Shown piece after piece: positions 48,197-50,551 of a stretch of 50,685 nucleotides of DNA. The notes under the pieces are model-generated. The model did not search any database. It was not told the DNA's origin and was given only the letters and a program-made list of their open reading frames with translations. Both the position numbers and the translations under genes were made by a program. The DNA is from Bacteroidota bacterium (GTDB lineage Bacteria > Bacteroidota > Bacteroidia > Flavobacteriales_D > Sanyastnellaceae), in the NCBI GenBank assembly GCA_002746975.1, contig NVXE01000005.1, positions 9,076 through 59,760 of the forward strand. The letters are read 5' to 3'. Position 1 is the stretch's first letter. Every line of letters begins with the position of its first letter.

Positions 48197-48970
48197 TCAC
48201 ATATTTGGCAAACGCCTAATCTCAGTAAGTTGGTGAGTTAGTCCGCCTAGCTCTGCGTGTACAATCCCATCTGAGTTAAATCTATCCACACGTACTTCAC
48301 CAGATGCATGAACGACAGAATCTCGTGTAACAAGTATTGCTACGTGTGAGATATTTCCGTCTGCATTTTTAAAGAAAGCCAAATCATCTGCCTCTCTATC
48401 TTCCCATTTTATAGGTTCTCCAAATGTGATTTGCTCTGATGCATCTCTAGCCAATTCTCGTCCAGTAAGACGAGCTGCCAACATGGTTAATCCAGAGCAA
48501 TCAATCCCTGCGACCGTCCTGCCTCCCCACTGATATGGCGCGCCTAAAAGAGATAGTGCTGCATCTCGCATTGACTTCGGAAGTTTACCGAATGGGTCTA
48601 AAGTATTTGATTTGTCTGTAGTTTTATTAATACGAGTATCTGCAATATATAAAGCCCCGTCACGTTCTTCAATTAAAGCACAAGCGGGGAGCCATAGATG
48701 AGCTTTAGTTCGTTCATTTACCCACTCTGACATTGTTGCACTTAAGATAATCCTCTCTTGCGGCATTTTTAACCCAAATACGAACTGACGCCTATCTGCC
48801 CAGCCTTCATAGCCATCTTCTAAAGATTTTACTTTAAGCCAGTTACCGCGACCTTCTTCAAGTATAGAAATACACTCTCCAGCTAATATTTGGTTTACTT
48901 GTTCAGACCTATCATTAGGTAATGCTCTGAGTGGTATTACTGAAACAGATGCAATTCCGACAGAACTCAA
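48197..48970 (-). CDS. NlpC/P60-family (C40) peptidase with N-terminal SH3-like domain
   Basis: A 257-aa cysteine peptidase predicted to cut peptidoglycan stem peptides. An N-terminal bacterial SH3-like domain (VSVIPLRALPNDRSEQV to YEGWADRRQF) is followed by a linker and the C40 domain with catalytic Cys in YQWGGRTVAGIDCSGL and His in NISHVAIL. There is no signal peptide, although its substrate is periplasmic. This is, as I recall, common for the family in Bacteroidota. The start appears to be TTG at 48970 overlapping the thiolase stop (TTGA), indicating coupled translation; the N-terminus matches homologues of the form xxGIxxxSxxPLR. Confidence 0.88.
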   Translation of the reverse strand: MSSVGIASVSVIPLRALPNDRSEQVNQILAGECISILEEGRGNWLKVKSLEDGYEGWADRRQFVFGLKMPQERIILSATMSEWVNERTKAHLWLPACALIEERDGALYIADTRINKTTDKSNTLDPFGKLPKSMRDAALSLLGAPYQWGGRTVAGIDCSGLTMLAARLTGRELARDASEQITFGEPIKWEDREADDLAFFKNADGNISHVAILVTRDSVVHASGEVRVDRFNSDGIVHAELGGLTHQLTEIRRLPNM

Positions 48971-50145
48971 AGTGCTTCAATTACTATAGCAGATGCACCT
49001 CCGCCACCGTTACAAATACCGGCAGCTCCATATTTCAATCCCCTCTCTTTAAGAGAATGGGCAAGAGTTACTACAATTCTACAACCGCTAGAACCTAGAG
49101 GATGGCCTAGTGCAACTGCGCCACCATTTACATTTACTTTTGAAGGGTCTAATCCCAATTCACGGTTATTCACTATTCCTACAACACTAAATGCTTCGTT
49201 CAGCTCCCATAAATCAATATCCTCAACTTTCAGTCCTGCTCTATCTAAAGCAATAGGTAATGCAATAGAAGGCGCAGTAGTAAACCACTCTGGAGCGTGA
49301 GCAGCATCAGCGCACCCCAGTATTCTTGCTATAGGCTTAAGGCCATGTCGCTCGACAGCTTCTTCAGATGCCAAAATCATAGCACTAGCTCCATCATTTA
49401 ATGTCGAAGCATTAGCAGCAGTAACAGACCCTTCTTTATCAAAAGCAGGCCGTAAAGTAGAGATTCTATCCATCTTGACGTTTTTGTACTCCTCGTCTTG
49501 GGAGAAAATTATTGGATCACCTTTACGTTGAGGGATCTCTACCGAAACGACCTCTGCATTGAAAGCTCCTGAGTCCCACGCAGCAGCTGCCCTTTTATAG
49601 CTAGTAATTGCAAATTCGTCTTGTTCTTCTCTAGTAATTCCCTTTTCTCGAGCACAAAGTTCAGCACAATTGCCCATATGGGTTTTATTGTAAACATCTG
49701 TTAATCCATCGACAAGCATGCCATCTCGCATTTTTATGTCACCAAACTTATTTCCTTTCCGTGCATCAAGATAATGAGGTACTTGAGACATGTTTTCCAT
49801 ACCTCCTGCAATAACAATTTCTGCTTCGCCCATTGCTATAGTAGCCCTAGCAAGTGAAATAGCCTTCATTCCACTTGCACAAACCTTATTTACCGTCGTG
49901 CTAGGTACAGACTCTGAAAGACCTGCACCTAATGCTGCTTGACGTGCAGGAGCTTGCCCCATACCTGCTTGTAAGACATTACCCATGTAAACTTCTTCTA
50001 TCTCCTTAGGGTCTAAAGAAGCTCTGTCTAATGCGCCTTTGATTGCAATTGAACCTAATTTTGTAGCAGAGACACTTGACAATGACCCTAAAAAACTACC
50101 CATTGGAGTTCTTACTGCAGAAACTATATATACGTTTGATGACAT
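48967..50145 (-). CDS. Acetyl-CoA C-acyltransferase (thiolase)
   Basis: A 392-aa thiolase that condenses or cleaves acetyl-CoA units. The nucleophilic Cys is in VNKVCASGMKA (about 84-94), NEAFSVVG follows, then the catalytic His in GGAVALGHPLGSSG, and the second Cys in GICNGGGGASA. The sequence favours the biosynthetic/acetoacetyl-CoA type but does not decide chain-length preference. It is the first gene of an operon with the NlpC/P60 peptidase (four-base overlap). With the convergent 3-hydroxyacyl-CoA dehydrogenase and the HMG-CoA lyase it can account for part of fatty-acid or leucine-derived acetoacetate metabolism. No TAnnTTTG box was found upstream. Confidence 0.95.
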   Translation of the reverse strand: MSSNVYIVSAVRTPMGSFLGSLSSVSATKLGSIAIKGALDRASLDPKEIEEVYMGNVLQAGMGQAPARQAALGAGLSESVPSTTVNKVCASGMKAISLARATIAMGEAEIVIAGGMENMSQVPHYLDARKGNKFGDIKMRDGMLVDGLTDVYNKTHMGNCAELCAREKGITREEQDEFAITSYKRAAAAWDSGAFNAEVVSVEIPQRKGDPIIFSQDEEYKNVKMDRISTLRPAFDKEGSVTAANASTLNDGASAMILASEEAVERHGLKPIARILGCADAAHAPEWFTTAPSIALPIALDRAGLKVEDIDLWELNEAFSVVGIVNNRELGLDPSKVNVNGGAVALGHPLGSSGCRIVVTLAHSLKERGLKYGAAGICNGGGGASAIVIEAL

Positions 50146-50256
50146 GTTGAATATTTTAATACTGCGAAATTAACCTCTGTTGGCTCTAATAACACCTTTT
50201 TAGTCACACTTTGGCACACCCTTTGTAAAGATAACGATAGCAAGTAAAACTTGTAC
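50146..50256. other. Gene-free start of 402-base intergenic region
   Basis: Between the thiolase start (50145) and the minus-strand partial gene ending at 50548 there is no long ORF. This first part has no exact TAnnTTTG on either strand. The nearest matches are ACCCTTTG at 50218-50225 and ACACTTTG at 50206-50213 on the plus strand, both poor. The thiolase promoter must lie here but is not recognised. Confidence 0.5.
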
Positions 50257-50319
50257 ATGTTTTGGTTTTGGTTCAGTCAAATACATACGCCGGGAAACGT
50301 CCCGGCGTTTGTTTTGTAA
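50257..50319 (+). CDS. Possible leader peptide rich in Phe/Trp codons
   Basis: A 20-codon ORF beginning MFWFWF: three Phe and two Trp codons directly after the ATG. The last nine codons overlap a terminator-like hairpin (50287-50308). This resembles the layout of an attenuation leader for aromatic amino acids, but no aromatic biosynthesis gene follows on the plus strand within the window. It may be chance in a G/T-rich stretch (gttttggttttgg). Listed because the combination of aromatic codons and hairpin is striking. Confidence 0.35.
   Translation: MFWFWFSQIHTPGNVPAFVL
50287..50316 (+). terminator. Terminator-like hairpin
   Basis: A perfect 9-bp GC-rich stem acgccggga/tcccggcgt with loop aacg (50287-50308), then ttgttttg. 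It is oriented for plus-strand transcription; on the minus strand there is no T-tract. No plus-strand gene other than the possible leader ORF lies upstream, since thiolase is divergent, so an unannotated transcript is implied. Confidence 0.75.
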
Positions 50320-50324
50320 GAAAA

Positions 50325-50340
50325 CTTTTTTTAAAAAAAG
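50325..50340. repeat. 16-bp A/T palindrome
   Basis: CTTTTTTTAAAAAAAG is a perfect palindrome 16 bases after the terminator-like hairpin. It could be a bent or easily melted DNA segment, or a second weak termination signal. No function can be assigned. Confidence 0.5.
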
Positions 50341-50374
50341 CAACCTTTTATGACAAGTAATCGTATTTATCCGC

Positions 50375-50551
50375 ATGTCATTCTCTTTAATATCTTCTCC
50401 GAAAAAGTTGTCACATTTCCAACAACTGATTAGACATGTACATGATCAGCCTACACAATTAAGAAGAGCCCTTAGATTAGCCTGTAAAGAACTAACTAAA
50501 GATGAAGTTATTGCGTTAAGCAGTTGGGCTTCAGCACGGTATAGGCTTTAG
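50375..50551 (+). CDS. Possible 58-aa basic small protein
   Basis: ATG to TAG, 58 aa, starting MSFSLISSPKKLSHFQQLI and containing QLRRALRLACKELTKDEV and SSWASARYRL. The composition is protein-like (helical, basic, one Trp, one Cys) rather than shadow-like. There is no promoter box with the TAnnTTTG consensus upstream, and it overlaps the end of the minus-strand gene by four bases. It would be the first gene downstream of the leader-like ORF and hairpin. Family not recognised; whether it is expressed is unknown. Confidence 0.4.
   Translation: MSFSLISSPKKLSHFQQLIRHVHDQPTQLRRALRLACKELTKDEVIALSSWASARYRL

Follow-up and report, generated by a model that had tools for sequence, protein, structure and literature searches.

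Qrr, GlmY/GlmZ and CrcZ are proteobacterial small RNAs (sRNAs) that depend on sigma-54, whose promoters are recognized by GG and GT ten bases apart (-24/-12), and several of them are linked to Hfq. In attenuation leaders of the trp and phe type, aromatic codons follow one another close to a terminator. To our knowledge, sRNAs of Bacteroidota have seldom been studied outside the gut genera. For Flavobacterium psychrophilum, one published account places sigma-54 promoters ahead of groES-groEL, dnaK, grpE-dnaJ, htpG, clpB, lon, skp and the putative regulatory RNA Rfp36 (PMC9723704). Chaperone and protease genes are enriched among the predicted sigma-54 targets of Flavobacteriia, according to a second, comparative study (PMC12316311). 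The FopS RNAs of Bacteroides are reported to act at the start regions of susC-like mRNAs, which they repress, to bind RbpB and to have been deposited in Rfam (PMC11697453).

The window, by which we mean the whole 50,685-nt stretch of DNA analysed here, holds a locus that can be compared with all of these systems. We read positions 50238-50316 of its forward strand as a standalone sRNA gene of about 80 nt behind a sigma-54 promoter, with a probability of roughly 0.8; that the gene is transcribed we infer from its promoter and terminator. The putative promoter, TGGCAC-N5-TTGT (TGGCACACCCTTTGT, 50212-50226, forward strand), fits the -24/-12 pattern. Counting onward from its -12 position places the predicted +1 at 50238, 12 nt further on and two bases ahead of a 5' hairpin in the predicted folds (GCAAGU-AAA-ACUUGU, 50240-50254, forward strand). 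A U/G-rich block conserved in the cross-genus alignment, UUUUGGUUUUGGUUCAG (50260-50276, forward strand), comes next, followed by an intrinsic terminator with an AACG loop (50287-50316, forward strand), in whose T-tract the predicted RNA ends. A sequence-only reading of the same DNA had described a 20-codon ORF with a Phe-Trp run after its ATG, its last codons covered by a perfect, GC-rich 9-bp hairpin, then a T-rich tail and an A/T palindrome. ORF, hairpin and tail are present: the ORF begins at 50257, and the nine base pairs of the hairpin at 50287-50308 are unbroken, seven of them G-C, and enclose a loop of 4 nt; TTTGTTTTG comes after it. The sigma-54 site and the small hairpin at 50240-50254 lay beyond that reading. 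The fold of 50240-50340 scores 3.6 sd above its own shuffles, none of 200 equalling it, and an A/T palindrome at about 50326-50341, 3' of the T-rich tail, is absent from the aligned relatives. The locus is like Qrr, GlmY/GlmZ and CrcZ in combining a predicted intergenic sRNA, a -24/-12 promoter and an intrinsic terminator; it differs from them in belonging to another phylum and in matching no Rfam family.

On the left, a thiolase-family gene (48967-50145, reverse strand; Pfam Thiolase_N and Thiolase_C) diverges from the RNA. On the right lies orf58 (50375-50551, forward strand), a conserved small protein of 58 aa for which a Pfam search returned no match, and beyond it an opposite-strand gene that, by reading alone, we take to be pseudouridine-synthase-like (RluA-like). 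Four relatives from the window's genus (G001, G002, G007 and G011) carry the element at the same site with 79-81% identity. In two other genera it is found beside the same genes (G036 and G026; the G026 contig starts at the element, so that only the right side is visible). In G007 (locus L046), the opposite-strand RluA-like gene downstream of the RNA ends in a long C-terminal tail built of AAKKVAKP-type repeats, presumably histone-H1-like; the window's copy lacks this tail, and the DNA of G001 and G002 is similar to that of G007.

Occurrence within the genus is uneven, with the element present in five of 14 genomes and absent in six, while in three the contig ends too near the site to tell. 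At the six empty sites the thiolase gene directly adjoins the RluA-like gene, and the element is therefore dispensable. Loss of rpoN was considered as a cause and rejected, as all six of these genomes have rpoN. Of the 14 genus genomes, 13 encode the rpoN domain, G000 among them (the exception is 63% complete), and strong activator-domain matches (E below 1e-40) likewise occur in 13 of 14, again with G000; weaker activator matches were left uncounted, since every one of the 14 control genomes yields them too.

Block and terminator were described by a covariance model built from six sequences, the window and five relatives, so that block and loop are partly selected for, while the promoter was kept outside the model. 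It matches 85 of 114 genomes of the window's Flavobacteriales family. In a sample of the order 86 of 399 genomes match, 82 of them within the family, and none of the four weak matches outside it has a sigma-54 promoter. A sample of the class yielded 10 matching genomes in 395, three within the family and seven weak ones outside; no sigma-54 site was found in the five outside matches checked. Two families from beyond the order have block-like stretches accompanied by other terminators (L246, 1501-1563; L250, 1501-1564), which may be distant relatives of the module. A pattern scan of the named collection gave 38 stretches, titled Flavobacteriales, Crocinitomicaceae, Bacteroidetes, 'bacterium', Chryseobacterium gleum (MAGs) and, in one case, archaeal. 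This last match, L089, whose title is Woesearchaeota archaeon, falls within a 230-aa open ORF and was taken as chance.

The promoter divides the matches into two classes. The loci examined contained 145 matches, of which two antisense echoes (L046 and L209) were dropped; four of the remaining 143 (L209-L212) come from other families. A strict TGGCAY-N5-TTG site lies within 130 nt upstream of 58 of these 143, compared with 159 of 20,000 random 130-nt windows from the same loci (0.8%). Relaxing the pattern added no site among the 143 (control 368 of 20,000), and the sigma-54 and non-sigma-54 classes are thus distinct. One match counted without a site, L051 in G026, has only eight upstream bases in which a site could lie. 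Sixteen further family matches have no sigma-54 site, bringing the totals to 58 of 159 with the strict site and 101 of 159 without. After TTG the canonical C follows in only 10 of the 58 copies; the window has T there. The window also contains two other strict sites, both inside ORFs (418 and 387 aa). The 58 sigma-54-type copies come from 56 genomes in 15 genera and represent 55 distinct RNAs of 80-105 nt, and at 51 of them the nearest upstream ORF points away. Conservation across 15 genera makes it unlikely that the element is a remnant left after rearrangement, as the sequence-only reading had considered.

Upstream of 63 of 85 promoterless matches the nearest ORF lies on the same strand, the arrangement that 3'-end RNAs or mRNA terminators would show, and the 3' module is therefore shared more widely. 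This arrangement would also suit an explanation in which the conserved unit is only a type of terminator common in the family. We consider that highly improbable: among the 68 other terminators present in these loci, only two have the block (both at loci with further copies) and one has the AACG-type loop, compared with a nearby block at 86 of 100 terminators within matches and an AACG-type loop at 90 of 100. Since the model selects block and loop, these counts show rarity elsewhere rather than independence. The sigma-54 promoters, too, would be left unexplained by a mere terminator type. At L135, L147, L143 and L144, three to four copies of block plus terminator occupy a single intergenic region, without sigma-54 sites.

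The sigma-54-type RNAs follow a common plan of 5' hairpin, block and terminator. The 5' hairpin recurs in other genera with other sequences, and in the window's genus the predicted +1 falls within 3 nt of it. Its support across RNAs is partial: in 29 of 55 RNAs the first 34 nt outdo mononucleotide shuffles by over 1 sd, the window's own not being among them (z -0.3). The block is predicted to be mostly unpaired, with a mean unpaired probability of 0.65 in the window RNA and 0.58 over 55 RNAs; the value is at least 0.5 in 44 of the 55 and lower in 11. In genus g5, ATTTGGTTTAGGTTAAG is invariant in all 14 RNAs of an alignment that takes in 14 of 18 distinct RNAs, while the 5' part varies. The four g5 RNAs outside the alignment comprise two that agree (L057 and L068), one with TTAGG for TTAAG (L054) and one with TTTTTGG for AATTTGG (L126). 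For the terminator stem, 102 matches were reduced to 86 distinct rows, the L046 antisense echo still being among them. Compensatory changes affect both sides of each of the nine pairs, and pairing holds in 99.7% of cells, a figure that leans upward as the alignment was fitted to the stem; slid controls give 30-54%. A search of Rfam 15 with the end of the window and another 14 loci gave no family over its gathering threshold, the best match to the element reaching 29.7 bits against a threshold of 52.

The Phe-Trp ORF that first drew attention to this locus can be best explained from the RNA. Its 20 codons from ATG 50257 read MFWFWFSQIHTPGNVPAFVL, with a TAA stop at 50317-50319 (ORF 50257-50319, forward strand), and the block is the source of the FWFWF codons. 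Only the window's genus has RNAs in which at least four aromatic residues in a row come after an ATG, five among the 56 distinct RNAs; at the corresponding position G036 and G026 have no ATG and read TTTGGTTTAGGTT. Outside the genus, then, block and hairpin are kept and the aromatic run is lost, the very outcome that the sequence-only reading had named as speaking against its idea of an aromatic leader. Within the genus, the window and its relatives differ at two Leu/Pro codons, where the stem has U-A against C-G and G-U against G-C. The stem pairing is thus conserved and the peptide changed. The ORF is a by-product of the block and probably not a gene.

An aromatic attenuator was rejected on the same codon counts, five of 56 distinct RNAs in one genus. 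No aromatic-pathway gene follows on the same strand at the window locus, just as the sequence-only reading had remarked, orf58 being succeeded by an opposite-strand gene, and the minimum-energy folds of the window and homologous RNAs contain no competing antiterminator. The locus departs from trp and phe leaders in lacking an aromatic-pathway gene behind it, in its unconserved codons and in showing no alternative hairpin in these minimum-energy folds. A dual-function RNA, which in the window's genus would also encode a MIWFWF or MFWFWF peptide, might account for the ATG and W-F-W-F being kept in all five genus copies. However, identical letters of the block are conserved outside the genus without an ATG, the stop codon varies and is missing within 15 nt of the end in three of the five copies, and the Leu/Pro differences track base-pairing rather than peptide. 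We regard a second, coding role as very unlikely.

The neighbouring genes offer two further explanations. A thiolase gene like the window's lies near 47 of the 58 sigma-54-type copies, the window included. At 45 of them it is divergent from the RNA, 26 at a distance of 110-121 nt and 43 within 215 nt (the two L205 copies stand at 493 and 1809 nt); two copies lie upstream of a same-strand thiolase, and 11 have no thiolase in the 2-5 kb examined. Such steady company, 45 divergent and two codirectional neighbours, could mean that the locus mainly serves the thiolase, its divergent promoter sharing the control and the RNA being secondary. Against this, thiolase is missing from the stretch examined at 11 of 58 copies, the block is the best conserved part, and thiolase persists in the six genus genomes where the RNA is gone. 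We therefore hold this explanation to be unlikely.

On the other side, orf58 follows the RNA at 21 of the 58 sigma-54-type loci, the window included. Homologs with 39-50% identity to it were observed at the 20 other such loci and at L051. A leader acting in cis, governing orf58 either through translation of the ORF or through termination at the hairpin, would agree with these 21 loci, with the overlap of ORF and terminator and with the start of orf58 only 58 nt past the T-tail. At 12 further loci the nearest downstream ORF among those of 70 aa or longer is a different one that also runs on the same strand. However, orf58 is missing at 37 of the 58 copies, four same-genus relatives among them, and 25 have neither orf58 nor a same-strand ORF of at least 70 aa. 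The aromatic run confined to five of 56 distinct RNAs and the minimum-energy folds devoid of a competing antiterminator argue in the same direction. A cis leader for orf58 was rejected on the 37 copies that lack it, and control in cis appears hardly credible; with it falls out of favour the reversed-logic attenuator for the small downstream ORF that the sequence-only reading had suggested. We regard orf58 as a neighbour that is not required.

We return to the standalone sRNA gene. Its transcription would start from the promoter at 50212-50226, by an RNA polymerase that carries sigma-54 and is assisted by an enhancer-binding activator, and would yield an RNA with a 5' hairpin, a U/G-rich block predicted to be mostly unpaired and an intrinsic terminator. 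The block would most likely act in trans, either as a short base-pairing seed or as a handle for an RNA-binding protein. The earlier suggestion of a trans-acting leader RNA thus comes close to the evidence in its trans-acting part, and what has to be replaced is the leader, the RNA having a gene of its own. Targets with long complementarity were searched for and rejected, as the block's complements do not outnumber the controls. With at most two mismatches, four genus genomes hold 21 complements compared with 34 for a reversed-pattern control, four of the 21 being the sRNA itself; six g5 genomes hold 8 compared with 19, and six of the 8 are the sRNA itself. The lack of an excess makes a short seed or a protein-binding role likelier than a long duplex.

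By analogy with the sigma-54 regulon of F. psychrophilum, which belongs to another family, the RNA may be made under protein-folding or envelope stress. Rfp36 is alike in being a putative regulatory RNA of the same order behind a sigma-54 (SM4) promoter, and its regulon includes chaperones and exported proteins; the likeness is one of description (PMC9723704). FopS is the nearest functional model for the window RNA. FopS RNAs are likewise short RNAs of the same phylum with a single-stranded conserved block followed by a terminator, and they form many paralogs, one derived from a 3' end (PMC11697453). In contrast to FopS, a 5' hairpin precedes the block here and one class has sigma-54 promoters; none of the families in the Rfam copy used, which may lack FopS, matches here.

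Hfq is found in one of 114 family genomes and RRM proteins in 79 of 114. The sole Hfq, at L214 (G012:C40), lies on a contig with two further activator-domain matches, which is either an acquired island or contamination. We tentatively propose, as a possibility well short of an even chance, that the UUUGGUUWWGGUUWAG block and the AACG-loop terminator form a shared 3' module, serving as the handle of an sRNA-binding protein that replaces Hfq, perhaps an RRM protein. The RNAs sharing this module would be the sigma-54 sRNAs, the tandem arrays and probable mRNA 3' ends.

We classify the RNA as a new family within a known kind of sRNA; among the best-ranked matches listed in the literature searched, we noticed no RNA of this kind. 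The locus also illustrates how a striking leader-like ORF can arise as a by-product of an RNA motif. It looks as if many members of this family, mostly uncultured flavobacteria, have kept an sRNA gene next to the same neighbour. In a family that almost lacks Hfq, this sRNA may act in trans as a regulator, possibly one induced by stress. It thereby touches the wider question of Hfq-independent sRNA action in Bacteroidota, and with a defined promoter class, a conserved block, related RNAs and six empty-site relatives at hand, its function and its protein partner are testable.
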